From positions 1 through 24,826 of IMG/VR virus record IMGVR_UViG_3300021139_000140: DNA of 24,826 bases. One strand, 5' to 3'. Position numbers and translations under genes: made by a program. Source of the stretch: a virus. Positions 633 to 22,336 of this stretch are shown here, one piece after another (within the stretch, counting starts at the first letter, position 1; every line of letters starts with the position of its first letter). The notes below the pieces were generated by a model. The model saw only the letters and a list, made by a program, of their open reading frames with translations. It ran no database searches and was not told the DNA's origin.

Positions 633-1697
633 CTATGCAGTATCTCCACCGAGTACCCAAACAGCCGCGGCACCAGCATTTGATCTTACGTACACTGTTG
701 CTAATGCCCATTGTCCACCAGTATTTGCACCAGTTGATCTATGAAAGAATGTTGTACCAGCAGCGTTAGCAAATGTAACGTTGCCTGTATTTACTTGAAC
801 GATTGTGCAAGTAAACCCAGCGGGCGCACTATTTGGAAGTGTTACGGTTGCAGCAGCAGTATTGTTTATTTCAAGTATTTTACCAGAATCCGTATTTGCA
901 AGAGTATATGCTGTTACTGATTGTAAGTTTACGTTTGCAAGGAACCCTGTGATAATAGAGTTAGAGAACGTGGTCGCTGCGTTAGTGATAACCACGTTCT
1001 GTGTTGCATTTCCTACAGTAACGTTTGCTGTTGCGGTGTATATAGCAGCATTCACTACACCAGTTGTATTTGCTACGAATACACCAGATGTATTTGCGAT
1101 TACGTTAGATGATGCTAGGTTAGCTGATGTCGTTACAAATAACGTTGCTGTGTTTGTTTGACCAGTAATGTTGATTGCAGTAGTATTTACCAATGTAGAG
1201 TTAGCAGTAAATGTTGTGCTAACGTTGATAGAGCCTGTCGCGTATAACTTTGTAAGATTTAATGTACCAGATGAATCGTTTTGTGTACCATTGCCTAGAG
1301 ACAATGATGCGGCGGCAGAACGAGAAATACCCGAATCATTATTCCAAGATACTACTTGACCAGCAGCAACATTTACATAACCTGTTGTGGTTATACCTGT
1401 TGAGTTGGCAATAAATGAAGTACCGACAGAGTGTACAGCAGCGTTTACTACACCAGTTGTATTGGATACAAAGACACCGGCTGAGTTGATCGATACGTTA
1501 CCACCAGATACGCTATATGATGGAGCATTTGCGCCGACCACGATTAATGTAGAGCCATTGCTCGTATAGAGAATCTGATCTGGCATATTCAACGCAAGAC
1601 CGCCAGCATTGATATACTGACTGTTGGTTGAAACCGTAGTATTAGGTTGTCTACCAGCAACAGATGTGCGGAAGACTTGCAACACAGTATTGGCCAT
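633..1697 (-). CDS. Tail fibre protein, 354 aa
   Basis: The N-terminus (MANTVLQVFRTSVAGR, then TNSQYINAGGLALNMPDQIL) is the attachment-type start shared by many fibre proteins of marine T4-like phages. The middle is Asn/Ser/Thr-rich and repetitive; residues 162-217 are a 56-residue block nearly identical to one in the 1094-residue fibre upstream. The last 95 residues or so (SVTAYTLANTDSGKILEINN, a TLPNSAPAGFTCTIVQ stretch, then QWALATVYV and VWVLGGDTA) look like a compact beta domain common at the C-termini of phage surface proteins. GAGG lies 7 bases before the ATG. It follows the 68-residue coiled-coil gene across 34 bases that hold an inverted repeat. It probably forms part of a fibre; whether it binds a receptor cannot be told. 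Confidence 0.85.
   Translation of the reverse strand: MANTVLQVFRTSVAGRQPNTTVSTNSQYINAGGLALNMPDQILYTSNGSTLIVVGANAPSYSVSGGNVSINSAGVFVSNTTGVVNAAVHSVGTSFIANSTGITTTGYVNVAAGQVVSWNNDSGISRSAAASLSLGNGTQNDSSGTLNLTKLYATGSINVSTTFTANSTLVNTTAINITGQTNTATLFVTTSANLASSNVIANTSGVFVANTTGVVNAAIYTATANVTVGNATQNVVITNAATTFSNSIITGFLANVNLQSVTAYTLANTDSGKILEINNTAAATVTLPNSAPAGFTCTIVQVNTGNVTFANAAGTTFFHRSTGANTGGQWALATVYVRSNAGAAAVWVLGGDTA
1047..1214 (-). repeat. Fibre repeat module, copy C (in the 354-aa fibre)
   Basis: Encodes residues 162-217 of the 354-residue fibre, beginning TFTANSTLVN and ending TGVVNA. It matches copy A (3694-3861) at 52 of 56 residues. By hand alignment about four fifths of the bases match, with a 26-base identical run at 1090-1115 (copy A 3737-3762). 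Differences are mainly at silent positions, so this is either an older duplication held by selection or a block exchanged by recombination between fibre genes. Confidence 0.85.
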
Positions 1698-1714
1698 ATG
1701 GCACCTCTAAGTCA

Positions 1715-1730
1715 ACTGGTATGTACCAGT
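1715..1730 (-). repeat. Inverted repeat (hairpin) between fibre genes
   Basis: On the minus strand this reads ACTGGTACATACCAGT: a 6-base stem (ACTGGT/ACCAGT) around ACAT, or a 7-base stem around CA. It starts one base after the stop of the 68-residue gene (TAA at 1732-1734) and ends a few bases before the AGAGG ribosome binding site of the 354-residue fibre. No T-run follows on either strand, so it is not a standard intrinsic terminator. In this compact region it could affect RNA processing or translation of the fibre gene, or it could be chance. Confidence 0.4.
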
Positions 1731-1731
1731 A

Positions 1732-1938
1732 TTAAAAATCTTCTTCAGTCTTCTTTGCTACTGACTTCTTTCCTGCTTTATCTAAAGCAATCCGAAGCTT
1801 TTCGTTCTCAATATTTAGTTCTTCAATCGCCTTTGTTTTGAAATGAGAGTCCGTCTCTAGAAACAAGACTCTCGTTTGCAAGTCGATTAATGTTGCTTTC
1901 ATCTTTTCAATATAAACAGTGATAAACTCTTCAGTCAT
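1732..1938 (-). CDS. Small coiled-coil protein, 68 aa
   Basis: A short, highly charged protein. Residues 1-55 show the hydrophobic spacing of an amphipathic helix (EFITVYIEKMKATLIDLQTR, then IEELNIENEKLRIAL), and the tail is Lys/Glu-rich. No signal peptide or enzymatic motif is visible. AAGGA lies 6 bases before the ATG, and only 12 bases separate it from the end of the 1094-residue fibre gene, so it is surely co-transcribed with the fibres. Small coiled-coil proteins between fibre genes are common in T4-like phages of aquatic bacteria. A structural or assembly-helper role is possible but not shown. Its placement after a long fibre gene mirrors the 76-residue gene at 7214-7444. Confidence 0.75.
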   Translation of the reverse strand: MTEEFITVYIEKMKATLIDLQTRVLFLETDSHFKTKAIEELNIENEKLRIALDKAGKKSVAKKTEEDF

Positions 1939-1950
1939 AATATATCCTTA

Positions 1951-4900
1951 TTAGAATGTCCCGCCGTCGATACCTCCGAATGCTGGGATATTATTTAGAA
2001 TCTGTAGAACAGTGCCGTTAGCACCAGCAGATGCTAGGCCAACTGGTCCAGAGCCGTTACCATAGAGAACAGCAGCAGAAGTTAGTGTCAGTAGACCAGT
2101 ACCACCAGAACCTGCTCCAAGAGCAGTGGCAAGCGATAGTGTGTTAGCAGTGATGTTGACATTGACAGTCGAATTCGCTGTGATCGTAACACCAGACTGA
2201 GTTGATGTGACACCAAGGAATGACAATGGCATTGGTGACTGAGTAGCACCAATCGTCGCACCAAATGGCGTTGTGTTCGCTGGATATGATGGATTAGCAA
2301 TCTGATTGTTCGAAACAAATAGTGAGAAGCTATTTGAAGATGCAACACGAGCCAAGCCATAGAATGCTGTATAATAAGCATTCGCAGTACCAACAGAACT
2401 TGTACCAGAAGCAACCTGAGACATAATCAAGTTGGTCGAGTTGACCACAGTGACAAATGTGTTCGCAGGAATGTTTGTACCAGTGATCAACTCACCGACA
2501 TAGAAGCCAGCAGTTGTTGTCATCTGTACGTTAGCAGAGTTTAATGTTGTATTCGCTGTAATGTTGGTTGCAGACTGAATAGGCGCACTTGAAATGAATC
2601 CAGTGTCTATTACGTCGGATGTGGTATTATACGCTGATCCCGATGGTGAAACATAGTTAGGGCTATTTTCATCAGCAAGACCAATGATATTATCATTAAT
2701 ATTTAGATTGGTTGTATTGATCGAAGCAAGTGTGCCTTGGACATATAAGTTGCCAGAAATGATGGCATTCTGTACGCTAAGATTTGCTGATGTTGCTGAA
2801 ACGTTACCACCAGTAAACTGAAGAACTGAACTATTAACGTTGAAACCGTATGATGTTGCAACTGATGTTGTATTGATTGTTGTATTGCCAAGAGTGTTAG
2901 CAATCGCAATGTTTGTTGGACCTGTGACTGTTGAGTTACCAGAAACATAGCCAGCAGTAGATACGTTTGTCGTTGGAGTAACAGCAGAACCAACCGAAGA
3001 GTGTAAGTTAGCTTGGACAACACCAGAAGTGTTGGCAACGAACACACCAGAAGTATTAGCAATAACGTTAGATGATGCTATATTAGCTGATGTCGTAACG
3101 TATAGTGTTGCTGTATTGATTTGATTTGTGACGTTTAGATATGAACCAACAGTAAGTGATGATCCAAAGTTAACGGCACCAGAGATGTTTGCGGTACCAG
3201 TGACGGCAAGTGTAGCATTAGGTGCAGTATTGCCAATACCAACGTTGCCGCTGTTTGTGATACGCATTCTTTCATTGGAAGCCAACTGACCACCAGTAAA
3301 GAAGTTAACGTAGTTTGTGCCACCACCTAGAGATGCAACACCGATCGACAAGTTTGTATTAGCAGAATATAGATAAGCATCTGATGGCTGGCTGATCGTC
3401 CAAGAAGAGTTCGACCAGTTGACACCGACCATACCAAAGTCAGCGAAGTTATTGCCAGAAGGTCCATTACTATCAAAGACAATAAAGTCTGTCGATGACT
3501 GTGTGCCTGTGTTGGCATTCCACATAACCATTTCGACATAGTTGTTTTGATTACCAGCAAACTCTGCGATAGATGAATCACCAGCATTAAAGCCAATAAC
3601 AACATTCATATAACTGTTGCCAGTAGCTAATACAGAAGTATTGGCGAGAGATCCACCACTTGATGTGCCGTATGAACCAGCTTTAAGTGCAAATGCGTTA
3701 ACAACACCTGTAGCATTTGCGACAAACACACCAGAGGTATTTGCGATTACGTTAGATGATGCGATATTGGCTGATGTAGTGACAAAAAGTGTTGCGGTAT
3801 TTGTTTGACCAGTAATATTAACGGCAGTAGCATTAACTAGTGTAGAGTTAGCAGTAAATGTGGCACCAGTCTGTATTGTAGTCGCATTTACTGTGCCAGT
3901 GGTCCAAACGCCTGTTGCATTAAGCTGTACGGCTGATGCGATATTAGCTGATGTTGTTGCATAGATCGTAGCAGCATTCACCTGACCAGATACGTTGATG
4001 TATGGACCAGAGAAACCAGTAGTTGCATAGATCGTACCAGCATTTACTGTAGCAGTATTGACTGATGAACCCTGAACAACAGTTGAGCCTATTGCCAATG
4101 TTGTCGATGATAGGTTAGCAATAGATGCACCACCCGTACCACTGATTACCTGAACAAAAGTAGAACCAGTGTTTGATTGTACAACAATATTAGCACTTGA
4201 TGTGATTGAACTGTTGCCGATTGCAAGACTTGCTGATGTTAAGTTTGCAACAGATGACGAGTTCTGAATGGTAAACTGTGGCGCACCAGAGATTGTGTTA
4301 TTACCGTAAGAAACAGAAGTTGTACTGTTTGTTGTGATTGTAAAAGATGGTGCAGTTGATGTATTACCAGCAACAGAAATCGATGTTGTGTTGATCTGTA
4401 CGTTACCAACGTTGGCATATACACCAATAGAAACGTTAGAACTAAAAGTAATAGTGTTCTGGAATGTCTGAGTATTTGACCAGTTCCAGTTGTTTGCAGC
4501 GATCTGGGCACCAGTTAGACCAGCAGAAGCAGCAGCCCAGTAAGGAGCGCCTGTGGCACCATTTGTTGTTAGAACATAACCAGCAGTACCAGTTGAGCCG
4601 TTAGCATTTAATGGAATACCAGAAATAGTTACCTGAGTTGTATTTGCAACAAAAGTCGCACCATTTGTGCTGAGTGAGTTTGCTTGGATTGTGTTGGCCG
4701 CAATCGCAGTTACAGAACTATTACCACCAGAGAATGTGATGCTGTTTCCAGAGAACGTCTGATTATTTGTCCATGTATATGCAAAGCTAGTGTTAGCACC
4801 ACCAGAAGCGATCTTACCAGAGACATATGTGATAATAGCTTGTGATGTTACAAGTTCTGAACCAGAACCGCCACCAGATGCATTTGCACCAAGTATTGAT

Positions 4901-5235
4901 GATGATGTTGAGTTAGAAATAGAAGTGATTAGAACGTTTGATGGAGTCAAAGCTGATGTTGTGATCATCAACCCTGAAGTCAGTGTATTTGAAATGAATG
5001 AGTTGGCGTCAACGACTACCGTAGCATTAGCGGCAAGAGTACCAGGCGTAACTACGTTATTGACATATCCGTATTTGGTACCACCAATGAGCAAAGCAGT
5101 TGTACCAACGCCAGTCTGAGCGCCGATGAAGAATCCGTTTGATGAATACGAATAAGCAAGTTCACCGCCATTCAACGTAGTAGTTGGTGTAGCTGATGTG
5201 TTACTACGTCTGATTTGAACGATTGTATTTGACAT
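1951..5235 (-). CDS. Large modular tail fibre protein, 1094 aa
   Basis: The N-terminus (MSNTIVQIRRSNTSATP, then LNGGELAYSYSSNGFFIGAQ) is the attachment-type start of marine T4-like fibre proteins. The body is Asn/Ser/Thr-rich and repetitive. Recognisable pieces are the repeat block at residues 459-514 with a second partial copy at 704-742; ERMRITNSGNVGIG near 655-670, a motif frequent in fibres ahead of chaperone domains; YVQGTLASINTTNLNINDN near 819-845, followed by DTGF and AFYGLARVASSNSF, a widespread fibre module; and an IP-type beta module near 888-955. The C-terminus ends IDGGTF. No peptidase S74 chaperone domain follows the GNVGIG motif, so trimer folding must rely on something else. 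The ATG overlaps the stop of the preceding gene (TAATG). A tail or side fibre role is very likely; its exact position on the virion is unknown. Confidence 0.88.
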   Translation of the reverse strand: MSNTIVQIRRSNTSATPTTTLNGGELAYSYSSNGFFIGAQTGVGTTALLIGGTKYGYVNNVVTPGTLAANATVVVDANSFISNTLTSGLMITTSALTPSNVLITSISNSTSSSILGANASGGGSGSELVTSQAIITYVSGKIASGGANTSFAYTWTNNQTFSGNSITFSGGNSSVTAIAANTIQANSLSTNGATFVANTTQVTISGIPLNANGSTGTAGYVLTTNGATGAPYWAAASAGLTGAQIAANNWNWSNTQTFQNTITFSSNVSIGVYANVGNVQINTTSISVAGNTSTAPSFTITTNSTTSVSYGNNTISGAPQFTIQNSSSVANLTSASLAIGNSSITSSANIVVQSNTGSTFVQVISGTGGASIANLSSTTLAIGSTVVQGSSVNTATVNAGTIYATTGFSGPYINVSGQVNAATIYATTSANIASAVQLNATGVWTTGTVNATTIQTGATFTANSTLVNATAVNITGQTNTATLFVTTSANIASSNVIANTSGVFVANATGVVNAFALKAGSYGTSSGGSLANTSVLATGNSYMNVVIGFNAGDSSIAEFAGNQNNYVEMVMWNANTGTQSSTDFIVFDSNGPSGNNFADFGMVGVNWSNSSWTISQPSDAYLYSANTNLSIGVASLGGGTNYVNFFTGGQLASNERMRITNSGNVGIGNTAPNATLAVTGTANISGAVNFGSSLTVGSYLNVTNQINTATLYVTTSANIASSNVIANTSGVFVANTSGVVQANLHSSVGSAVTPTTNVSTAGYVSGNSTVTGPTNIAIANTLGNTTINTTSVATSYGFNVNSSVLQFTGGNVSATSANLSVQNAIISGNLYVQGTLASINTTNLNINDNIIGLADENSPNYVSPSGSAYNTTSDVIDTGFISSAPIQSATNITANTTLNSANVQMTTTAGFYVGELITGTNIPANTFVTVVNSTNLIMSQVASGTSSVGTANAYYTAFYGLARVASSNSFSLFVSNNQIANPSYPANTTPFGATIGATQSPMPLSFLGVTSTQSGVTITANSTVNVNITANTLSLATALGAGSGGTGLLTLTSAAVLYGNGSGPVGLASAGANGTVLQILNNIPAFGGIDGGTF
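3010..3126 (-). repeat. Fibre repeat module, partial copy B (in the 1094-aa fibre)
   Basis: Encodes residues 704-742 of the 1094-residue fibre, beginning NQINTATLYV and ending TSGVVQA. It matches the last 39 residues of copy A at 33 positions. The surrounding sequence has more diverged relatives of the same module, for example AATIYATTSANIASAVQLNA just before copy A. Confidence 0.8.
3694..3861 (-). repeat. Fibre repeat module, copy A (in the 1094-aa fibre)
   Basis: Encodes residues 459-514 of the 1094-residue fibre: 56 residues beginning TFTANSTLVN and ending TGVVNA. It is almost the same protein sequence as copy C in a different gene about 2.6 kb away. The core ATLFVTTSANIASSNVIANT recurs in all three copies with few changes. 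Confidence 0.85.
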
Positions 5236-5579
5236 TAGAAGTTCCCGCCATCGATGCTAGTTATGTTTAAGTTATTTGGAGATTCCAGAATAAACTTTTC
5301 TTCTTCAGCATTATATACGAGAGTATTACCATCAGACTCGTCAAGTAGTTCAACGTCTAATAGACCACGTAACTCATTTGCGGCAATCAATGCATCATTT
5401 CTTATTACAATAGGTGTCGCGTTTGTTGAAAATCGAATAGGATTAGTTACTGGAGCAGATACTTCTGCTTCAATGTTTTCATGTTCTGCACCAACCTTAA
5501 CCGATTTTGGTGCAAATGTATTTGTTCCGATTTTAATATTCGAATTGCCCGTAGGGCTAATTCTTACATTAATCGCCAT
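5235..5579 (-). CDS. Short virion structural protein with IDGGNF C-terminus, 114 aa
   Basis: Starts MAINVRISPTGNSNIKIGTN; then an acidic middle, GLLDVELLDESDGNTLVYNA near residues 72-91, and an end reading TSIDGGNF. Short proteins of this kind, with a hydrophobic LVYNA/LVYDA stretch and a C-terminal IDGGxF, occur among fibre genes of T4-like phages of aquatic bacteria. The same ending (IDGGTF) closes the 1094-residue fibre just downstream, so the two probably share a terminal structural element. It overlaps the preceding gene by 11 bases and shares TAATG with the following fibre gene, which implies translational coupling. Its role in the virion is inferred only. Confidence 0.78.
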   Translation of the reverse strand: MAINVRISPTGNSNIKIGTNTFAPKSVKVGAEHENIEAEVSAPVTNPIRFSTNATPIVIRNDALIAANELRGLLDVELLDESDGNTLVYNAEEEKFILESPNNLNITSIDGGNF

Positions 5580-5925
5580 ATGTCACTCCAGAAAGATGAG
5601 TGACTTCAGGTGTAACTGTCAAGATGCCTTCAACAACTCGGACAATGTTATTGCTTGTGTCGATGGTGATTACGTCATAGACATACCTACCATACCACAA
5701 AGCCGCAGTTGTGTTTGCGTCTAGTGATAACTCAATGATTCCATTTGTTGGTTGAGGTATCGAAACATTAAATGATACAGAGTTGGAAGACGTATACCAC
5801 TTGCGAACTTGTGCCTGGGCAGTGTAGCCAGTCAAGTCTAATGGTTGACCACTATCGCCAGTCAAGTTCAATGTTGTATTGAACGTTGTGCCTTGATCTA
5901 AAATGATGTCTGCATGGGCCGCCAT
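5569..5925 (-). CDS. Small beta-rich virion structural protein, 118 aa
   Basis: Starts MAAHADIILDQGTTFNTTLN; then LDLTGYTAQAQVRKWYTSS near residues 30-48, ALWYGRYVYDVITI near 75-88 and VRVVEGILTVTPEVT near 95-109. The alternating hydrophobic pattern points to a single beta-sandwich domain. The DQG...DLTGYT...RKxYxS...GRYVYDV...RVVEG...VTP pattern is a recurring family in the fibre regions of T4-like aquatic phages, sometimes compared with baseplate upper-protein (BppU) N-domains; I know this from memory and cannot assign a function. AAAGGA lies 6 bases before the ATG and overlaps the stop of the homing endonuclease gene, so translation can follow directly from it. Confidence 0.8.
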   Translation of the reverse strand: MAAHADIILDQGTTFNTTLNLTGDSGQPLDLTGYTAQAQVRKWYTSSNSVSFNVSIPQPTNGIIELSLDANTTAALWYGRYVYDVITIDTSNNIVRVVEGILTVTPEVTHLSGVTYGD

Positions 5926-5928
5926 ATT

Positions 5929-6630
5929 TTATCCTTTTACCGATATTTTATTATAGTTGTGTTTGCATTTGTCACCGTGCCATCTAGTCATATTTGGCGC
6001 ATCCACCATTACGTGACAATATACACATTCTTCTTTAGGACGAACGTAACCCATACTATATGCAGATTTTCTATTTTTCAATTTCAATTTTTGTTCTTCT
6101 GTTCTAGTTTTACCCAGATTTTTGCCAATCATAGAAATTGATCTTTTATGTTTATGCTCTTCTGATTGATTTTTGCCAAAATTAGGATTATTACTTCCTT
6201 TTAGAGATTCGCTTATTCTTTTTTTAGATTCGGATGTATGTAATTTGTCTAAACGAGGATGCTTTCTGCCGCCGGCGTCAACATTCCAATTTTGATTTCT
6301 CATCCAATTATCATCTCCGAAATGACGACTACTCGATGGATCAATTGATATGTTGTCTGTTTTATTTAGAAAGTTGGCGCGATTGACAACATTCATTCTT
6401 TTCAATACTTTATTTTCCCATTTTCGAGCAGAATCAATATCATCGAATGTTTTTCTTATTTGTATCACATTTGGTGCACCATTTTCTTGACAAAATGATG
6501 ATACGTGTTTTGATGATGTGAAATATGTTTTCCACAATTCGCCAACGTTGCAACCTCTAGCATATCTTACACCATAATACCAGACATCAAGTTCTTTCCA
6601 ACCTATCAGATATGTATACGCAACAACCAT
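5929..6630 (-). CDS. Free-standing homing endonuclease, GIY-YIG-like with NUMOD3 repeats, 233 aa
   Basis: The N-terminal domain (residues 5-95) resembles a divergent GIY-YIG nuclease: YTYLIGW, then WYYGVRYARGC with candidate catalytic Tyr18/Tyr19 and Arg22, LWKTYFTSSKHV, and Glu72 in WENKVLKRM as the candidate metal ligand. This layout is common in phage genes annotated as homing endonucleases. Residues 130-186 hold two or three NUMOD3-type DNA-binding repeats (HTSESKKRISESLKGSNNP, SEEHKHKRSISMIGK, KTRTEEQKLKL). The C-terminus has Cys202, Cys205, His218 and Cys222, spaced like a zinc finger. The gene is visibly richer in A and T than its neighbours and lies between two conserved fibre-network genes. 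It has its own ribosome binding site (AGGAAAG) and a late promoter motif. No intron is evident; it appears to be an intergenic insertion. Activity is not shown. Confidence 0.85.
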   Translation of the reverse strand: MVVAYTYLIGWKELDVWYYGVRYARGCNVGELWKTYFTSSKHVSSFCQENGAPNVIQIRKTFDDIDSARKWENKVLKRMNVVNRANFLNKTDNISIDPSSSRHFGDDNWMRNQNWNVDAGGRKHPRLDKLHTSESKKRISESLKGSNNPNFGKNQSEEHKHKRSISMIGKNLGKTRTEEQKLKLKNRKSAYSMGYVRPKEECVYCHVMVDAPNMTRWHGDKCKHNYNKISVKG

Positions 6631-6652
6631 AACACTTTCCTATCTTTTCTTT

Positions 6653-6660
6653 TATTTATA
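6653..6660 (-). promoter_or_regulatory. T4-type late promoter motif TATAAATA upstream of the homing endonuclease gene
   Basis: The minus strand reads TATAAATA directly after the stop codon of the 190-residue gene (TAA at 6661-6663), within the 30-base gap before the endonuclease ATG at 6630. This is the exact consensus recognised in T4 by the late sigma factor gp55. Transcription would start roughly 6 to 7 bases downstream, giving a leader of under 20 bases that still contains AGGAAAG (6635-6641), 5 bases from the ATG. An 8-base AT-rich match can arise by chance, but the position is right. Confidence 0.6.
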
Positions 6661-7233
6661 TTAGATAGACAGTGAAGTTCTTTCAAAGTTGACATTACCC
6701 GTAGTCTGTGTTGGCGATACTAGAAGATTGACATAACCAGAAGAGATATTGGCTGAGAAAGTGCCCATAACGCCATTAGTTTGTAACGTTGCGTATTCTG
6801 TAATAAAAACATTTGCTCCACCATCCTGTAAAACCATGATTTCGGTGCATTGGTGTCCAATACCCGTATCAATCTGAAGTAGATACTTTGCGCTACGAAA
6901 AGAAGTAAGTGGAAACTTGTCAACAATCTGATTTGCTGTGCCTGTCGTTAATACTGTTTGACCAGCAACATATGTGGCAGTGTTCATTGTGACATTGCTT
7001 GTGACAATAAGTGTGTTTGATACAGTATTGTTTCCGCCTTGAATGCTACCAAGTGCAATCAAAGTGCTGGCTGAAAACTGTCCATTCACATAAGCATTAC
7101 CTGAGGTGACACCAAGAGTTGAGTTTGCCGTTAAAATACTAAGTGACAAGTTCGCGCACAACTGATTCGTTGTCTGAATCCAGTTATAGAATGTGCCTGT
7201 TGTGGTACTAACGTTAGCTGTTGCTATTGACAT
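6661..7233 (-). CDS. Virion structural protein with FRSAKY C-terminal domain, 190 aa
   Basis: Residues 1-35 (STTTGTFYNWIQTTNQLCAN) look like an attachment helix, followed by a Ser/Thr/Asn-rich beta stretch with GNAYVNGQFSASTLIALG near 65-82. Residues 105-190 form a domain with DKFPLTSFRSAKYLLQID, CTEIMVLQDGGANVFITEYA, GTFSANISSGYVNLLVSP and a final ERTSLSI. This FRSAKY...TEIMVL.DG...TEYATL pattern is widespread in structural proteins of cyanomyoviruses and pelagiphages, as I recall it. The start at ATG 7233 overlaps the previous gene by 20 bases and has only a weak ribosome binding site, so coupling to upstream translation is likely. The gene is probably a fibre or baseplate-periphery part; the endonuclease gene was inserted just after it. 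Confidence 0.82.
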   Translation of the reverse strand: MSIATANVSTTTGTFYNWIQTTNQLCANLSLSILTANSTLGVTSGNAYVNGQFSASTLIALGSIQGGNNTVSNTLIVTSNVTMNTATYVAGQTVLTTGTANQIVDKFPLTSFRSAKYLLQIDTGIGHQCTEIMVLQDGGANVFITEYATLQTNGVMGTFSANISSGYVNLLVSPTQTTGNVNFERTSLSI

Positions 7234-15070: not shown

Positions 15071-16939
15071 TCAGTAGTTTAGAAGCAACTGAATGGTCTC
15101 AGATTGTGTATTTGCTCTATTGATCGCCGTAAAGTTTTCAATATAAAGAACATCGCCGCTTTCTGGTACCAAATCTGGTGGTGTTACTGTATTTATAGTG
15201 AATGATTGAGTGTCTTGTGATGTGACAGTGCCATTAGCGGCCACAGAGAATGAGTTGATCGTATTGCTTGAATAGATTGGACCAAACTTGTCTGTGACAT
15301 ATACGGTTGTTGCATTACCTGCATAATAGATTGCATTTGCCACAAGTTGACTTGTCGAGTTAGCAATAGAGTTTACCGTTGGATTGCCTTGATAAACAGA
15401 TTGACCAGAACTAAAAGTGCTTGTGGTATAATATCCACTATATTGATAGAACTGTGTGAATGTGGTAAATGGTTTTGTTTTGCCACTAATAGTAAATGCT
15501 GTAATCTGAGCATATGTATTTGAAGTTGTGCCGTGGATCAGACCAGAAGAACTATTTGTTGACACTGCCCATGTAGAACTTGCATTGGTGATTTCTAATG
15601 GCGAAGCATCTTTGACAATACCAGTCGAAACAGTATTACCGATTGTTTGTGTGACTGTCTCACCTACAGTGAATAATCCTGTATTTCCAGAAACAGTAAA
15701 CGTAACATTAGAGAATAATGGATTGCGAATAATACCAATAGACTGATAATCGCTTACCGTCGGGATTGTATTACTTTCTGAGTTGGCGAATGTGATGCTT
15801 AGGCCAACTGTATTGCAAAACAACTCGGCTGCTACGTTGGAACCATGGCCACCTTCTGGACCAGCGATGACGCGAATCGTTGCGGTGTTTGACACACCAA
15901 CAGCAGGAGAAACGTTTACATACGCTCCAGCAGCATATACACCAGTACCGCGATTTAGAACCTGGATCTGATAGATACTATTACCAGCAGCCGCATTGAC
16001 TAGAGCGATTGCAGCCGCAGAGGTATTTGCATCACTGCTATTCAGAATCGTAACAGCAGGAGCAATAATATACTGAGAGCCATTGGTTGGTGCGGTAGAA
16101 AACTGTGAAGCAAGTGTTAGATATGTGCCACTTGTGTTTGAATAGTGGCTTGTGACTTGCTTATATTGACCAGCACCTGTGCCTGAAGTCACATATAGAT
16201 AGCAGCCATTATAATACTGATTAGTCTTCGATGCGTCTGTCGGAAGAACAATCAAAGGATATGTGGTATTTGTCACAGATGACGCTGAAAATGTATTATT
16301 GTAATAGTTGTTATATCCAGAGCCAGTTGTTGCTGTGATATTATTATTTCCATCAACAGGAACAATAACGTCGATTGCACCAGAAACTGCATTGCTTGTT
16401 ACGTTGGCATCAGGTAAAACTGGAATATATCCGCCAGTAGCAAAAGTATTATACAACGAAGCGGGGAACTTGTACATATATTTCCACTGATATCCATCAG
16501 ATGTTTCATAATATGGATCACCAGCAATCGTATCGCTGTATAGTGGCTGTGCTGTAGATGCTGCACCGTTATTGTTGTATAGACACTTCCATACATAATA
16601 ATAAGTCGCTGGTGTGCCTATTGATGTGTATACATAAAAGTTTTCATTAATAAGATTTGTATTCTGGTCATCATACATTGCATAAACTGAGCCAGAGCCC
16701 CATGCAACACCAGTAATCATCAATGAAGCATCTGAGGAGTTCAATGCTTTACCAAACAGCATTGTGTTGTATGCAGTAAACTCGGTCGTGTTTGGATTAT
16801 CGTATAGTGTAGGAACACCATTTGTCCATGTGCCAGCTTGACCCGCAAATACATAATATCCAGAAGACACAGAGTTAACAAACGCCTGGGCATTCTGAAG
16901 TCTATATTTGTTTGTGAGTAGTTGAGTAGTAGTTCCCAT
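15071..16939 (-). CDS. 8: Baseplate wedge protein gp8, 622 aa
   Basis: The gp8 family is recognised from YYVFAGQAGTW (28-38), NTMLFGKALNSSDASLMITG (58-77) with VAWGSGSVYAMYDD (78-91), YYVWKCLYNNNGAAST (114-129), ETSDGYQWKYMYKFP (145-159), and GPEGGHGSNVAAEL (about 360-373) followed by SIGIIRNPL. In T4, gp8 is a dimeric wedge protein that joins the gp10-gp7 complex during wedge assembly. The protein is nearly twice the 334 residues of T4 gp8, with an added C-terminal half containing an F.VGE.VTQ module (LFTVGETVTQTI) and ending in QSETIQLLLNY; long gp8 versions are usual in aquatic T4-like phages, as I recall. TAGGA lies 6 bases before ATG. It follows the gp7-position gene by 8 bases, as expected for coordinated wedge expression. 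Confidence 0.9.
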   Translation of the reverse strand: MGTTTQLLTNKYRLQNAQAFVNSVSSGYYVFAGQAGTWTNGVPTLYDNPNTTEFTAYNTMLFGKALNSSDASLMITGVAWGSGSVYAMYDDQNTNLINENFYVYTSIGTPATYYYVWKCLYNNNGAASTAQPLYSDTIAGDPYYETSDGYQWKYMYKFPASLYNTFATGGYIPVLPDANVTSNAVSGAIDVIVPVDGNNNITATTGSGYNNYYNNTFSASSVTNTTYPLIVLPTDASKTNQYYNGCYLYVTSGTGAGQYKQVTSHYSNTSGTYLTLASQFSTAPTNGSQYIIAPAVTILNSSDANTSAAAIALVNAAAGNSIYQIQVLNRGTGVYAAGAYVNVSPAVGVSNTATIRVIAGPEGGHGSNVAAELFCNTVGLSITFANSESNTIPTVSDYQSIGIIRNPLFSNVTFTVSGNTGLFTVGETVTQTIGNTVSTGIVKDASPLEITNASSTWAVSTNSSSGLIHGTTSNTYAQITAFTISGKTKPFTTFTQFYQYSGYYTTSTFSSGQSVYQGNPTVNSIANSTSQLVANAIYYAGNATTVYVTDKFGPIYSSNTINSFSVAANGTVTSQDTQSFTINTVTPPDLVPESGDVLYIENFTAINRANTQSETIQLLLNY

Positions 16940-16947
16940 TATTAATC

Positions 16948-19900
16948 CTAATGTGTAGTCGGACCAGTGTTAGCGTTAGATATTTCCACTTGCTTGGATA
17001 TTGTACTTGTTTTTACAACAGCGCCAAACAACTTAGTTCCTGCCATGTGAACAACATCTTCTACCATTTGTTCATACTGACTTGGATCAAGTGATGATTT
17101 AATCTCATAAGAAAATGTCTGATAATATTCACCGTCTTGTAGATACTTATCAGAAGACAAAAAGCCCTTTGTCGATGAGTAGAACCCAGCGCCAACACCT
17201 TGTTTGCCTAGATTGACAATAGCTGTACCAGTTCTTGTTCCATCATTCGATGAGAATGTAACAGTTTCAGCATTGACATAACCAATACCAGATGTTTGAA
17301 CGGCAAGTGATGTGACAGTACCTGTTTCTGTAACAACGTTTGCCGTTACATTTGCATTATCGCCTGCATAGCTTGATATTGTGTTTGCGGCGACATAAAC
17401 AACATTTGCGGAAGTACCACTCTGTACACCAACAATATTGTTTCCAGTTACACTAAAATCTTGATTGACAGACCAACGACGAACACTCATCACATTATTA
17501 TTTACAGATAGAACTTTACCAATCGCTGTGCCATATGATGTAAGACCGACTGAACTTACATTTGATGTTGCGAGTGACGTTAATCCGAAAACATTCTGTG
17601 AAGCCACAAATGTTGTTGTATTCGAAACGTTGGCGGTATTAATAGGGCTAGAGACATAAAGAACATTCGCTTGTGGAATATTCGATACCACACCAATAGA
17701 AGATAGAATAGACACAGAAGATGCGACATTCTCGGTGCTTGGTGCTGATGCTAGTTGTAATGCCGTTGAGTTGATAACACTAGTGACAAATCGTAAGTCT
17801 TTACCGCCGATTAGAATATAGTTATTCGCAGCAAAGGTAGAAGTAAAGTTTGGTGCACCTGTATTGGCCAACAGAATAGAACTAACGCTATTTGCAAGAT
17901 ATGTGCCAGCAGGTGTACTGTTTACTTGATATACAGACTCACCAACAGTAAATGAAGGATTTGTGGTGAGATTTACAGTTATGGCATTATTTGTTGCAAC
18001 ATTCTGCGTGACTTCTTCATTTAAGAGGAAAGAACCGCTAGAGTTTGCAATAGTGATTACATAATCTTGTTTGTTGAGTGCCGCCACATATGGCTGATAG
18101 ATTTCGACATATGGTGAATGATTATAGTTTTCACCAGGATTTGTCTGTAAAATAGATTCAATCTCGCCAACTTGTAGAACGCTGAACGATAGAATATCAT
18201 TTAAATAACCAACAGTCAAGTTTGCCGATGGAAACTTAGGGAATCCATAACTAATAGCATTTAATGATAATGAAAGATATAGCTGACCGTTACTATTATA
18301 TCCACCAATCATATCGGTGTAATCAAAGATCGTTTCAGATGAGTTGATTACTCCCAACACCATATTCGCATAAGTGCCAGTTGAAATGCTGATGATATTG
18401 GCCGAAACGTTCTGTGCAGCAGAGACAGCAGAAATAACAGCATTTGCGCTAGACACATTGCCTTTTACTTGATACGTAGTGACGAACGCACCGTTTGATA
18501 CGTTCAATGTCAACTGCGAGGAGTTTGCTGCTAATAGAATACCTGTGGCAACGTTCGCGCTACCATTACTCTGATAGATTAGTTCACCAGGAACAAATGC
18601 GGCAGTGTTGCTTGTAACTGTCAAGTATCGTGGATAGTTCGCTACAACATATGTGTATGCGTTTGTGAGCGCGCCAGTCAATCCAATAACACCAATCTCT
18701 GTGGTGAAGTTGTTTACTGTAGCAGTGGCACCAGATGTTTGACCTGTTACTGTAACACCAGTACCAAAATAGCTATTTGATAATCCAGTAACAACAAGAG
18801 TATTTGATGAATATGTTATTACATTCGCTGTAATGCCATCTGATGTAGTAACTGTCTCGCCTGTTGTAAATGATCCAGTAACACCATAAACAGCAACAGC
18901 AGCATTTGCACCATAAGCAAAAGAGTTTGCATATAGATTTGCAGATAGATTTGATGGATTAACAAAAGTTACGTTAGAGAACTTTTCAAATGGCGCCTGA
19001 CTTGTAGGTAGTGTTGTGTGAACGTTCGACAGACCAATGACAGTGTTTGATATTAAAACATTTGCATTATTTGCATATCCCCAGCCACCATCATTTCTTA
19101 TGAAACTAACGATACCAGTTACGTCTGAAATACCAGTAACACGACCTGTGCCCTGTGCCCCGAACTGTCCATTAAGTGGAACAATATCACCAACATTGAA
19201 ACCATATCCGCCTTCTTGCACGATAAGTTCGCTGAGTGAACCAAGGACAAAAGGAACGTTGGTTAGATCGTTATCATAGCTGAGTAGTTCACCAGTCTGA
19301 AAGTTCTTTTCAGAAACATTTGTGATATAAAAAAGATTGATTAGCTGTGCGCCGATCTTGCGTTTGACAATATGATCAACGAATGCAGTTGCACCAGACG
19401 AAACACCAGTTACAGTCTTGCCAACAAAGCTTGCGTTACGTGGTGATGCAGTGACTTCTAGATACTGTGGAACAATCCATGTGCCAGAAGATGTTGTGAA
19501 AATATCTTCTCCTGGTAGATAAACAGTGATATCTTCACCAAACACCAGATTGAACAAAAGCTTTAGCCCGCGAATGTTACCCTTTGCTCTGTATAGATCA
19601 AGGACTTTCTTTACGGTAAGTCTTTTGTCTGCTAGTGATGTATACTGGATGCCACTTAGATATGTGTCGGTAAAATACACCAGGAAGTCATCCAGAGTGG
19701 TATCCACGTCAGCATAAGACATTAGCTGTCTAGCCATATAGATAGGATTACCAAGCAGCACAGGCGCACCAGCGACAGCTACAGAACCAACAGCACCTGA
19801 CGCTGCACCATATATTTGTGTATTAGATAAAAAAGTACCAGAAATGTTATTGACAGTGATAGTGGAACCTGATATACTCACAACTGTGCCAGATGATATG

Positions 19901-20112
19901 ATATTACCTGTTGAGTCTGATTGGTATACAACTTCGTTATTAGCAAACTCACTAGTCGAATCAATAACAGTTAGTTGTATCACATCATATGACTGTTCCA
20001 TCCATTCATAATACGCGGTTATAAATGCAATCAGATTAGGTCCCTGTTCATTATAGAATGAAGGGAACTGTGATGGAATCAGATTCGATATAGTTTGTTC
20101 GACTTGGCTCAA
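16948..20112 (-). CDS. 7: Large baseplate wedge protein, gp7 counterpart, 1054 aa (TTG start)
   Basis: The N-terminus (SQFPSFYNEQGPNLIAFITA, then YYEWMEQSYDV) and the DKRLTVKKVLDLYRAKGNIR, GLKLLFNLVFGEDITVYLPG region (about 160-205) are conserved in the protein placed between gp6 and gp8 in T4-like aquatic phages. The C-terminus (EYYQTFSYEIKSSL, then VEDVVHMAGTKLFGAVV) is also typical. Length is close to T4 gp7 (1032 residues). The middle carries many short beta modules with F..GE.V (SFTTGETVTTSDG, FVPGELIYQSNG, SFTVGESVYQV) and G.TSGA.A.V stretches. The start codon is TTG, since upstream codons reach a stop (20122-20124) with no ATG; TAAGG lies 7 bases before it. The gp7 label rests on position, length and family memory; identity with T4 gp7 is not visible by eye. 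Confidence 0.72.
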   Translation of the reverse strand: MSQVEQTISNLIPSQFPSFYNEQGPNLIAFITAYYEWMEQSYDVIQLTVIDSTSEFANNEVVYQSDSTGNIISSGTVVSISGSTITVNNISGTFLSNTQIYGAASGAVGSVAVAGAPVLLGNPIYMARQLMSYADVDTTLDDFLVYFTDTYLSGIQYTSLADKRLTVKKVLDLYRAKGNIRGLKLLFNLVFGEDITVYLPGEDIFTTSSGTWIVPQYLEVTASPRNASFVGKTVTGVSSGATAFVDHIVKRKIGAQLINLFYITNVSEKNFQTGELLSYDNDLTNVPFVLGSLSELIVQEGGYGFNVGDIVPLNGQFGAQGTGRVTGISDVTGIVSFIRNDGGWGYANNANVLISNTVIGLSNVHTTLPTSQAPFEKFSNVTFVNPSNLSANLYANSFAYGANAAVAVYGVTGSFTTGETVTTSDGITANVITYSSNTLVVTGLSNSYFGTGVTVTGQTSGATATVNNFTTEIGVIGLTGALTNAYTYVVANYPRYLTVTSNTAAFVPGELIYQSNGSANVATGILLAANSSQLTLNVSNGAFVTTYQVKGNVSSANAVISAVSAAQNVSANIISISTGTYANMVLGVINSSETIFDYTDMIGGYNSNGQLYLSLSLNAISYGFPKFPSANLTVGYLNDILSFSVLQVGEIESILQTNPGENYNHSPYVEIYQPYVAALNKQDYVITIANSSGSFLLNEEVTQNVATNNAITVNLTTNPSFTVGESVYQVNSTPAGTYLANSVSSILLANTGAPNFTSTFAANNYILIGGKDLRFVTSVINSTALQLASAPSTENVASSVSILSSIGVVSNIPQANVLYVSSPINTANVSNTTTFVASQNVFGLTSLATSNVSSVGLTSYGTAIGKVLSVNNNVMSVRRWSVNQDFSVTGNNIVGVQSGTSANVVYVAANTISSYAGDNANVTANVVTETGTVTSLAVQTSGIGYVNAETVTFSSNDGTRTGTAIVNLGKQGVGAGFYSSTKGFLSSDKYLQDGEYYQTFSYEIKSSLDPSQYEQMVEDVVHMAGTKLFGAVVKTSTISKQVEISNANTGPTTH

Positions 20113-20124
20113 CTTACTGCCTTA
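20110..20124 (-). promoter_or_regulatory. Ribosome binding site and TTG start of the gp7 counterpart
   Basis: The minus strand reads TAAGG (20124-20120), a 7-base spacer, then TTG (20112-20110). The stop of gp6 (TAA, 20116-20114) lies inside the spacer. In frame upstream there are only three codons before a stop, and none is ATG or GTG. The next downstream Met is deep inside the conserved N-terminal domain, so TTG decides the start. Confidence 0.7.
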
Positions 20125-21901
20125 CGATTTGGACGTTGACAATGATTTCGTCATTTGGAATCTCAAAGATAACATTCTGTGATGTTGAAACATCTTTGAC
20201 ATTTTCTGGCAACTGACAATAGAAACGAATAGCATCACCTACATATGAGTCAACAAAGAAGTTGGTTAGTGTAATGACACCGTTAGTGAAGTCAACAGTA
20301 CCAACAACATTCGATGGCTGACCAGATACGATCAGATTGCCTGTGTATGTTTGTGTAATGTCATTAAATGAAGCGCCTGTGTCTTCAATGGTATAATAAA
20401 CACCATCAACAATATACTGAGTGCTGGTTACAGTAGTTCCTGATTGCCCTTCAGTGTTGAATGGCATGTTATACGTTAATGTATAGTTCTGTGTTGCAGA
20501 TGTTGGCAATAGTTTCTTCATAACAGAATATTCTGTCTGATTTGAAATGATGCTTGGATGTGCAGAATCGATTGCTTCTACCAGACGCGAATATAGTAGA
20601 GTTGATGCAAAGTTGTCAAGGTACTGTAGATTGTAAGTCTGAATAGCAGATGTAACGAATGTAGAGATATCTGCTGGCTGTAGTGTTGTCTGATTGATAT
20701 TGTACTTGACAGTGGTAGCAACAGAAGCATACGTGTAGTCTGGTTCAACGAACACAGGAATAATAGTCAATGGCGCACGAGTTGCAAGGAACTGTGAATA
20801 TTCTGTGACTTTATCTTGTGGAATATTATCAAAGTTATATAGCTTCAATGAGATGAACACTTTGCCGTATTGTGGAGGTGTTACTGTTTCTCCACCATAC
20901 ACCGATACTGATTCGATTTCTGGATATGTCACTTGAAGAAGTGTTTCATAGTCTGATGTTGTGACCGCACGTTCTTGTGTCGCATAATAGCGAGGAGCAT
21001 TAAACCTGATTGATTCAATGTCTTCGCCAATGTCACCGCCTTGTGCTGGTGATACTGTAGATACTGTGATGTTTGATGAACCACCAATTGTGCCATTTGG
21101 AGTGAACAATGAGATACCATTTGGTAACTGACCGTTTGTTGTTAGATAAGTTGCAACAATAGCAGCACCATCTATCGGTCTTCTACCAACAACATTGTCA
21201 CCAAAGATGATTTGATATTGACTGTTATCTGCTCCTTGTAAGAAGTAAACAGCAGAGTTTGAGTTTAGATCAAGTAGAGAAGTTGATTGAATATACGGAA
21301 TAACATTCGCGCCATTATTCTCAACAGAGATTACAGTCAATGATGTTGTATCAATCGTTGGATTTGACAATGTGAAGTATTGGACATTGGTGTTTGTCTG
21401 TGGTTGCATTATAAAAGTGTCGGTTACAGAAGTTCCTTCATATATTTCCACATTGGAAAAGTAAAAGTTTCCATCTGTATTTGCCTGAACAACAATATTC
21501 TGGTTTGTAGAAAATGTGTAGTTGTTTGATCCTGCTTTACCAGTAAACGATGTGCCCGCTGGAATAGTCAGAATGACTGGATTGTTTGGAACATTCGCAA
21601 CAACAATATCAATTAGAGCATATGATGATCTAAACGAACGAGGTACATAATTGAGTTCTTTTGCACGAAGAACAACCGAGTCGCGTTGTTGTGCAGTATC
21701 CAAAAACATTTCTGATGCGACCATATTCATATAGAACGCATTTAGATATGTGTTGTATGACAATAGGTCTAGAATTACACTGAGATTTGAACCATCAAAG
21801 TTATAGTCCTGAAACTGTTGCTGTGACTGCAAATAAGTCTTCAGGCTGTTTTTATAATCAGCGAAGTCCAATGAAGTCAATGTAATGCTGGTATTTGCCA
21901 T
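20114..21901 (-). CDS. 6: Baseplate wedge protein gp6 (baseplate J family), 595 aa
   Basis: The N-terminal region (residues 10-95: DFADYKNSLKTYLQSQQQFQ, FDGSNLSVILDLLSYNTYLN, AFYMNMVASEMFLDTAQQRD, VVLRAKELNYVPRS) is the conserved gp6/baseplate J start. Further on are TSDYETLLQVTYPEIESVSV and TPPQYGKVFISLKL (about 320-350), a region well kept in gp6. T4 gp6 has 660 residues; this is a little shorter. gp6 dimers form the ring that holds the six wedges together and carries the conformational change during contraction. The start has AGG 6 bases upstream and the gene follows gp25 by three bases, giving the gp25-gp6 pairing usual for contractile injection systems. Confidence 0.92.
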   Translation of the reverse strand: MANTSITLTSLDFADYKNSLKTYLQSQQQFQDYNFDGSNLSVILDLLSYNTYLNAFYMNMVASEMFLDTAQQRDSVVLRAKELNYVPRSFRSSYALIDIVVANVPNNPVILTIPAGTSFTGKAGSNNYTFSTNQNIVVQANTDGNFYFSNVEIYEGTSVTDTFIMQPQTNTNVQYFTLSNPTIDTTSLTVISVENNGANVIPYIQSTSLLDLNSNSAVYFLQGADNSQYQIIFGDNVVGRRPIDGAAIVATYLTTNGQLPNGISLFTPNGTIGGSSNITVSTVSPAQGGDIGEDIESIRFNAPRYYATQERAVTTSDYETLLQVTYPEIESVSVYGGETVTPPQYGKVFISLKLYNFDNIPQDKVTEYSQFLATRAPLTIIPVFVEPDYTYASVATTVKYNINQTTLQPADISTFVTSAIQTYNLQYLDNFASTLLYSRLVEAIDSAHPSIISNQTEYSVMKKLLPTSATQNYTLTYNMPFNTEGQSGTTVTSTQYIVDGVYYTIEDTGASFNDITQTYTGNLIVSGQPSNVVGTVDFTNGVITLTNFFVDSYVGDAIRFYCQLPENVKDVSTSQNVIFEIPNDEIIVNVQIVRQ

Positions 21902-21904
21902 GGT

Positions 21905-22336
21905 TTACCTAATGCGATAAAGGATTGTAGAAAGCGTAACAGGTTTATTTATGTTGACAATATAGAATGTGATGGTTATCGCATATGCATTTTGCTCTTC
22001 ATATGGAGTAGCAATAATAGAGATTAATTTTGCTCTTGGTTCATGGTTTGCGATAATGTTTTCTATTTCAATCTGAATACCACTTTGAGTGATAGAACTA
22101 ATAGGTTCGAACAAATAGTTGCGCAAGTTTCCTCCTATATCTGGTTGAAACGGGCGCTCATATTTGTTTGTTAAAATAAGATTTAGAATCGACTGACTTA
22201 CCGCGTCTTCGTTCTTTTTTATGACAAGATCATGCAATTCTGGATGCACCACAAAGTTGTCGAACAGATCGCTATAAAGAAGCGACTGTGAGGCTGTAGG
22301 TGTGAACTTGTCTTGATTGAACGATGATTGTGCCAT
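21905..22336 (-). CDS. 25: Baseplate wedge protein gp25 (GPW/gp25 family), 143 aa
   Basis: The GPW/gp25 signature lies at residues 47-78: VSQSILNLILTNKYERPFQP, then DIGGNLRNYLFEP. The second half is a beta-strand pair (RAKLISIIATPYEEQNAYAI, TITFYIVNI). Length compares well with T4 gp25 (132 residues). In T4, gp25 lies at the inner wedge, bridging gp6/gp53 to the hub and sheath; homologues occur in all contractile tails. AGGA lies 7 bases before the ATG, and only one base separates it from the 486-residue gene upstream. The lysozyme name sometimes given to this family is historical and no lysozyme catalytic site is expected. Confidence 0.93.
   Translation of the reverse strand: MAQSSFNQDKFTPTASQSLLYSDLFDNFVVHPELHDLVIKKNEDAVSQSILNLILTNKYERPFQPDIGGNLRNYLFEPISSITQSGIQIEIENIIANHEPRAKLISIIATPYEEQNAYAITITFYIVNINKPVTLSTILYRIR

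Follow-up and report, generated by a model that had tools for sequence, protein, structure and literature searches.

A GIY-YIG homing endonuclease gene that probably inserted behind an existing late promoter in the fibre operon of an uncultured T4-like phage

Probable insertion at a fibre assembly gene

Comparative analysis of the virus record IMGVR_UViG_3300021139_000140 (IMG/VR; the whole stretch of 24,826 nucleotides, termed the window) identified what is, in all probability, a free-standing, SegE-like GIY-YIG homing endonuclease gene that has no promoter of its own and whose insertion point is the start codon of a 118-aa fibre assembly gene, behind a late promoter and leader that were already in place. 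In the proposed mechanism, the endonuclease gene would land at the 118-aa start codon, taking over the leader, Shine-Dalgarno sequence, and start position, and its last codons would re-supply a Shine-Dalgarno sequence to the displaced gene. The endonuclease would be transcribed late from the borrowed promoter, jointly with the fibre genes behind it, and would cut empty alleles near the leader and the 118-aa start (the 118-aa gene being the probable target region); repair off the occupied genome would then copy the endonuclease in, plus flanking sequence. Transcription start, cleavage, and movement of the gene are what we infer from sequence comparison. As a promoter-less homing endonuclease in a fibre operon, the gene is ordinary in kind and unusually clear in detail.

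The window was assigned to a T4-like phage because proteins at 21905-22336 and 20114-21901 matched baseplate wedge PHROGs and the 118-aa protein matched the PHROG "L-shaped tail fiber protein assembly" (Table 1). The 118-aa protein had matches in 106 records of the phage collection, all below 60% identity and mostly from cyanophages with some methylophages and pelagiphages, and the 190-aa protein had no Pfam or PHROG match. The 190-aa gene ends at 6661 with the codon TAA, followed by the leader, and the 118-aa gene starts (5925) 3 bases past the endonuclease stop. The position between these two genes agrees with the initial annotation, which had placed the insertion in the fibre operon. Sigma-70-like promoters between genes (8 vs. 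8.3 in shuffles) and terminators between genes (1 vs. 1.2 in shuffles) showed no excess. Farther along the window, segments of 108-167 bases at 1048-1214, 3017-3124, and 3695-3861 (-), 81-83% identical, were repeated within the 1094-aa gene and the following 354-aa gene, and positions 1-500 displayed a GC content of up to 53% at the low end, with a proline-rich plus-strand reading and a glycine-rich coding strand composition as in phage adhesins.

Table 1. Features of the insertion locus and of related sites (window coordinates unless a contig is named)
Feature	Position	Strand	Basis
190-aa gene, fibre-region protein, directly 5' of the insertion	6661..7233 (coding 7233-6661)	(-)	ORF call
Leader, 30 bases (6660-6631), Shine-Dalgarno AGGA at 6638-6641	6631..6660	(-)	Sequence and empty-site comparison
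TATAAATA, T4-type late promoter motif, directly 3' of TAA	6653..6660	(-)	Kept in empty L106, L107, L108
Predicted free-standing GIY-YIG homing endonuclease gene, 233 aa	5929..6630	(-)	Pfam, PHROG, alignment, structure model
GIY-YIG nuclease domain, residues 1-92	6355..6630	(-)	Alignment and model
NUMOD3 DNA-binding motif, residues 131-162	6145..6240	(-)	Pfam
Zinc-finger-like C-terminus C-x2-C-x12-H-x3-C, residues 202-222	5965..6027	(-)	Sequence
AAAGGA in last endonuclease codons, probable Shine-Dalgarno for 118-aa gene	5932..5937	(-)	Sequence
371-base tract identical in both occupied haplotypes, strongly diverged flanks	5891..6261	(-)	Alignment
118-aa gene, L-shaped tail fibre assembly type	5569..5925	(-)	PHROG E=8e-26
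114-aa gene	5235-5579	(-)	ORF call
1094-aa fibre gene	1951-5235	(-)	ORF call
Exchanged module 3' of the insertion (114-aa and 1094-aa genes)	1951..5579	(-)	Contig comparison
Empty site of 240-aa cassette (own hairpin late promoter; present in G002)	1939..1952	(-)	Window vs. G002
HEG205 locus	L111 (G001) 18546-19955; L115 (G002) 1179-2585		Contig comparison

Features of the endonuclease protein

The 233-aa ORF is predicted to be a homing endonuclease gene of the GIY-YIG/NUMOD3/Cys-His kind. Pfam identified one stretch of NUMOD3 (E=2e-9), which was matched by 10/13 aligned family members, and the PHROG homing endonuclease match gave E=3.5e-13. The SegE_GIY-YIG profile reached E=0.022 and 15.4 bits in this protein, below the curated cut-off of 25, and was matched at E up to 0.1 by 9/13 aligned family members (best 1.9e-6). 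Residues Y7, Y19, G20, R22, E72, and N89, which we take to be the catalytic residues of the GIY-YIG fold, were invariant in 13/13 aligned sequences, and C202, C205, H218, and C222 form the finger-like C-terminus. An AlphaFold2 model had a mean pLDDT of 58.9, with 77-90 in seven of the first nine ten-residue blocks, 62 and 54 in the other two, and poor values past residue 90. The top VIA-align match of the model was the catalytic domain of I-TevI (Z 7.7, 84 residues, rmsd 2.8 A; a Z below 8 is not conclusive alone), followed by a second I-TevI catalytic domain entry (Z 7.5), a 5hmC-specific restriction endonuclease (Z 5.6), and UvrC GIY-YIG domains (4.6-5.0), with unrelated rows at 3.3 or below. 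Foldseek gave a weak result for the same model (E=0.41), and a sequence-profile search of solved structures returned a single match to an unrelated protein (E 0.041). Alignment and model together suggest a GIY-YIG fold with its conserved residues. The initial annotation had called a homing endonuclease gene here, and the NUMOD3, PHROG, and I-TevI-type model matches bear that out; its description of the gene as AT-richer holds only mildly, for the GC content was 33.8% compared to 36.6-43.1% in 14 other genes measured, while GC3 (24.8%) fell within their range (23.8-40.3%). The gene is under purifying selection, with dN/dS 0.08 between the two occupied haplotypes and, in the opening 336 bases that encode the nuclease half, 0.05 at a dS of about 1.1.

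The late promoter motif in related contigs

The window contains three copies of the motif TATAAATA, each on the coding strand and two of them inside genes; the copy in the endonuclease leader, which the initial annotation had correctly located directly past the upstream stop, ends 22 bases 5' of the endonuclease start. With one mismatch allowed, the window held 46 TATAAATA-like sites against 40 by chance, which is no excess. In five related contigs (G001, G002, G005, G007, and G008), oriented along their structural genes, the exact motif occurred at 43 forward sites, non-independent counts since the contigs share sequence, compared to 7 reverse sites, and 25 sites sat 15-60 bases 5' of a start, starts being simple longest-ORF picks. 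The 55 other letter orders of the motif had a forward mean of 8.6 (maximum 27) and a mean of 1.2 sites before starts (maximum 11, for ATATAAAT, which overlaps the motif). The strand bias and the sites at a short distance before starts support the earlier reading of a T4-type late promoter motif, and TATAAATA appears to act as a late-promoter signal in these phages. TATAAAT is used as the known T4 late promoter in two papers on T4-like phages (PMC9004378, PMC3037559). Elsewhere in the window, TATAAATA at 15190-15197 (-) lies inside a 622-aa gene, 127-128 bases before a 1583-aa gene, and was present at the same place in 8/8 covering sequences (window and G002-G008), including outgroups at about 67% identity; it is possibly an internal late promoter.

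Promoter ownership at occupied and empty sites

A search with the 190-aa protein recovered eight loci in which the 190-aa gene was 93-100% identical, five of them occupied by the endonuclease gene and three (L106, L107, and L108) empty, so that occupied and empty sites exist among close relatives as for a homing gene; the empty site that the initial annotation proposed to look for is thus a real one. Four of the five occupied loci carried the window haplotype (99.99-100% identical over the stretches compared) and the fifth, in G002, an endonuclease 94% identical to that of the window. L106 and L107 did not differ from one another in the 4.1 kb compared; on the upstream side of the insertion they shared 98.5% identity with the window over 4607 aligned bases and L108 shared 92%, the overall range for the three empty sites being about 90-99%. 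A leader pattern scan returned 15 stretches, eight of them this locus (five occupied and three empty), and a scan for the conserved 118-aa start returned eight stretches from the same contigs; neither revealed further haplotypes, and only two occupied and two empty haplotypes are known near the window.

All three empty loci had the order 190-aa stop, TATAAATA, A-rich leader with Shine-Dalgarno, and ATGG of the 118-aa gene, and the endonuclease ATGG of the occupied sites takes the position of this 118-aa ATGG. The left junction of the window resembled the empty leader of L106, while the occupied right junction AGGATAAAATATGG resembled that of L108, AGGATAATATATGG. The AGGA-to-ATG spacing at the 118-aa gene of the window was that of empty L108. 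The Shine-Dalgarno-to-ATGG block was therefore seen twice at the occupied site, once as that of the endonuclease and again as that of the 118-aa gene, from the last endonuclease codons. No remnant of the endonuclease was identified in L106 and L107. Because all three empty relatives keep the TATAAATA leader before the 118-aa gene, the promoter would have been present first, and by parsimony the endonuclease gene inserted into a leader already holding it; the promoter without the endonuclease, as a promoter-less cassette would have left it, appears at 3/3 empty sites. The initial annotation had regarded the promoter as the element's own, had promoter, ribosome binding site, and gene moving as a unit, and had suggested for this promoter a possible present role in driving the fibre genes downstream. 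The empty loci contradict the first two points, since motif, leader, and Shine-Dalgarno are kept there, and reverse the history in the third, the promoter having by parsimony belonged to the fibre gene first.

The 118-aa gene was surveyed at 65 loci, 61 of which had at least 700 bases upstream; a relative of five query endonucleases occurred within 1.2 kb upstream in 5/61, all from this clade, which makes the insertion the derived state by parsimony; the other 56 informative loci, including outgroups G006-G008, had no such endonuclease. The arrangement was weaker in the more distant relatives G006 and G007 (L043 and L044), where the motif CATAAATA started 17 bases before the 118-aa start, and G008 (L046) had no motif before it, suggesting that the promoter is older than the insertion and limited to this part of the tree. 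Relatives found in Acidovorax phage ACP17 and in Stenotrophomonas phage Ps15 are each flanked by two baseplate wedge genes, and the gene ends overlap or abut, leaving no space for a separate promoter.

Other arrangements were considered for the window gene. A promoter carried as part of the mobile unit was rejected on the motif and leader kept at the empty sites. A self-contained promoter-plus-hairpin of the I-TevI type was rejected on the unstructured leader, in which no hairpin was predicted (0 kcal/mol, z 0.42), and on the motif present at the empty sites. Lastly, no recoded or duplicated 118-aa 5' end was detected at the window site (score 28 vs. a shuffled maximum of 37), and no codons appear to have been replaced in the manner of yeast WHO elements.

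Endonuclease genes with predicted hairpin promoters in the same phages

Further endonuclease genes of these phages are preceded by another type of leader. G002 carries a 240-aa endonuclease gene between a fibre gene and a 68-aa gene (L114 14193-14953) and a 219-aa gene (L115 2601-3297), and a 267-aa ORF of the same kind occurs in G006 (L122 near 5789) and G007 (L125 near 10912). The 240-aa and 219-aa proteins matched the PHROG homing endonuclease, Pfam identified NUMOD3 in the former and nothing in the latter, and their GIY-YIG motif was read by eye. Each is preceded by TATAAATACTCTAG...GGAGTATTT, where the 3' side of the promoter pairs with the ribosome site. Hairpins of -9.8 to -17.1 kcal/mol (z -3.6 to -5.5) were predicted for four leaders of this type, including one from L146; one of the four, trimmed after the promoter motif, retained only -2.1 kcal/mol. 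At the insertion place of the 240-aa gene the window is empty and without a promoter, from which it follows that the promoter of the 240-aa gene came with the gene. Movement as a unit is thus, by this comparison, the right description for the 240-aa gene. In G008 (L127, about 3410-3524, -) a hairpin promoter was kept before an endonuclease gene with a large internal deletion that adjoins a 68-aa-type gene.

Sequence exchange around the insertion

The insertion sits at the edge of an exchanged fibre module. Upstream of it, the empty contigs G004 and G003 were 98.7% and 96.5% identical to the window, compared to 73% over the 118-aa gene, and were unmatched over roughly 3.5 kb beyond. The first 50 bases of the 118-aa gene were 86-98% identical between haplotypes, followed by divergence even between both occupied ones. 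The identity of G002 with the window was 94.8% farther upstream and only about 87% in the last 700 bases; dS was 0.86 for the 190-aa gene, about 1.1 for the first 336 bases of the endonuclease gene, 1.74 for the 118-aa gene, and 0.10 for the fibre gene common to both. Amid this divergence, a 371-base tract over the right end of the insertion was identical in both occupied haplotypes, spanning residues 124-233 in the DNA-binding half of the endonuclease and reaching into the start of the 118-aa gene. When the 246 differences were placed at random over 1665 bases in 20000 trials, the longest identical runs had a mean of 37 and a maximum of 101. The tract is, to judge by the alignment, a recombination (conversion) tract, for which homing with co-conversion is one cause and ordinary recombination another. 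The occupied haplotype of G002 is a single contig at this site, where an assembly chimera is possible.

Four endonuclease genes were found within 29600-43297 of G002, of which the 233-aa and 240-aa genes lie at the edges of the fibre block with about 4 kb between them. G001 and G002 matched in 6580/10515 bases over the stretch from the 233-aa to the 205-aa gene and in 14821/16720 bases further on; the resemblance of the two contigs extends over most of the length they share and is weakest between these two genes. An island moved by flanking endonucleases is therefore inseparable from the general similarity of G001 and G002.

The paralogue HEG205 and the connector gene

HEG205, a 205-aa relative of the window endonuclease (phmmer E about 1e-20) that reaches 25 bits for Pfam SegE_GIY-YIG, was identified in G002 and in G001, a 36-kb contig of the window haplotype. 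Ahead of it stand a CATAAATA leader and a fragment of the connector gene (PHROG head-tail adaptor) that comprises the first 23 codons and ends in an ATGA overlap with the HEG205 start; the full connector gene 3' of HEG205 begins inside the last HEG205 codons. The connector gene of the empty relatives L161-L163 matched, in its first 69 bases, the upstream fragment of G001 at 67/69 positions and the new start at 41/69; beyond this stretch the identity with the empty relatives returned to 90-100%. The 60 bases before the connector start were identical in G001 and L161, and the HEG205 leader of G002 differed more. Fragment and new start agree in 16/23 residues. From the 67/69 and 41/69 matches and the flank identity it follows that the old connector start has remained as a leftover and that the gene has acquired a recoded start. 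The 5'-duplication score was 96 vs. 34 in shuffles and 94 vs. 33 for the two HEG205 haplotypes. Out of 44 non-redundant endonuclease loci, 15 had no recognizable downstream start, and among the 29 judged only the two HEG205 haplotypes clearly displayed a 5' duplication; L021, L146, L158, and L213 exceeded the shuffled maximum by only 1 or 2 points, taken as chance. A WHO-like arrangement, with a recoded target end and the old end as a fragment, is thus indicated for the paralogue HEG205 only, and the replacement of the first 23 connector codons is the most novel by-product of the analysis. In G002, contig positions 39639-40243 and 40605-41207 (L114 and L115) form a tandem repeat (629 alignment columns, 70% identical) that duplicates the end of a glycine-rich tail-fibre-like gene, along with the connector leader and the first connector codons.

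A tentative generalization, which we hold to be somewhat more probably wrong than right, is that SegE-like genes form a class capturing late-gene starts: they would land at or just behind a start codon, keep the promoter and ribosome site, and return a replacement start, and the recoded 23 codons of HEG205 would also protect the connector gene from cutting. If such a class exists, the replacement would be a Shine-Dalgarno and ATGG in the window and the recoded first 23 connector codons in HEG205, and losing such an element would endanger the expression of an essential late gene.

Alternative explanations

That the endonuclease has its own late promoter, with promoter, ribosome site, and gene moving jointly, would fit the motif ending 22 bases before the endonuclease start and the existence of such a unit at another endonuclease gene of the same phages. 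The motif and leader kept in 3/3 empty relatives and a leader without the hairpin typical of self-contained units make this highly improbable. An endonuclease ancestral in the clade, with the empty sites produced by its precise loss or by exchange for an empty allele, is also improbable: frequent recombination at this place would make replacement by empty alleles easy, but 56/61 informative 118-aa loci, outgroups G006-G008 among them, are without the endonuclease and L106 and L107 hold no remnant of it.

Two other readings concern what the gene does at its place. The fibre module may swap by ordinary homologous recombination at conserved gene starts, with the endonuclease as a passenger at the border, a reading that comes near to an even chance and falls a little short of it; the conserved first 50 bases of the 118-aa gene (86-98% identical), the divergence behind them even between occupied haplotypes, and the differences of the empty phages from the outgroups in this same region speak for it. 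The identical tract spanning the DNA-binding half and the 118-aa start, and the second endonuclease gene bordering the same module in G002, speak against it, neither decisively. It is rather unlikely that the protein is no longer mobile and is kept by the phage, e.g., to exclude co-infecting relatives. A dN/dS of 0.05 in the nuclease half is stronger selection than expected for a decaying selfish gene, yet the patchy presence, empty sites, and identical tract suit ongoing movement, and both roles can coexist. 

Comparison with known systems

In these uncultured T4-like phages, naturally occurring occupied and empty sites allow promoter ownership to be decided base by base, and one phage group displays both published expression solutions, the borrowed host promoter and the self-contained hairpin promoter. 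According to the available text of PMC2988022, seven T4 endonuclease genes are apparent promoter-less cassettes using upstream promoters. The window gene appears similar in having no promoter of its own, the orientation of its neighbours, and an existing upstream promoter put to use, but differs in that the takeover is visible at base level, exactly at the start codon, and in that the displaced gene is given a new Shine-Dalgarno. A borrowed promoter is a known way of life for homing genes, seen here with occupied and empty close relatives. The likeness to SegE-like GIY-YIG proteins (Pfam PF19835) with NUMOD3 lies in a nuclease domain profile-related in 9/13 family members and in the NUMOD3 motif; the window protein differs in its C-terminal Cys/His finger and a score below the Pfam cut-off, and the gene differs in its site from T4 segE, which in the source text available lies at inh/uvsW.

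I-TevI, segB, and Aeh1 mobE each have a late promoter and a hairpin that covers the ribosome site (PMC2988022, PMC3014915, as far as their text was available). The 240-aa gene of G002 matches this arrangement. The window gene shares with it the late promoter directly before an endonuclease gene and differs in the lack of a hairpin, the hairpin type preceding the 240-, 219-, and 267-aa ORFs instead. Nuclease genes at exchange boundaries were already described as HEG islands, defined in the text available as high-identity blocks of more than 10 kb flanked by endonuclease genes in otherwise dissimilar phages (PMC10448857). Here, too, endonuclease genes (233-aa and 240-aa, in G002) border a fibre block that has been exchanged, but this block is about 4 kb and similarity extends along most of the length of the relatives compared. 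Since the site borders the fibre module, it is relevant to the question of homing as a driver of host-range gene exchange.

Among the titles and abstract openings covered by a literature search in which subscription journals were mostly absent, none pointed to a phage endonuclease with recoded, duplicated, or truncated target ends. The yeast WHO elements replace the 3' end of FBA1 according to the available part of PMC7282813, and HEG205 alone resembles them in that a neighbour gene end is replaced by a recoded copy with the old end left as a fragment. HEG205 differs in affecting the 5' rather than the 3' end, as a mirror image, and in its nuclease family; if confirmed, it would be a phage counterpart of the WHO elements.
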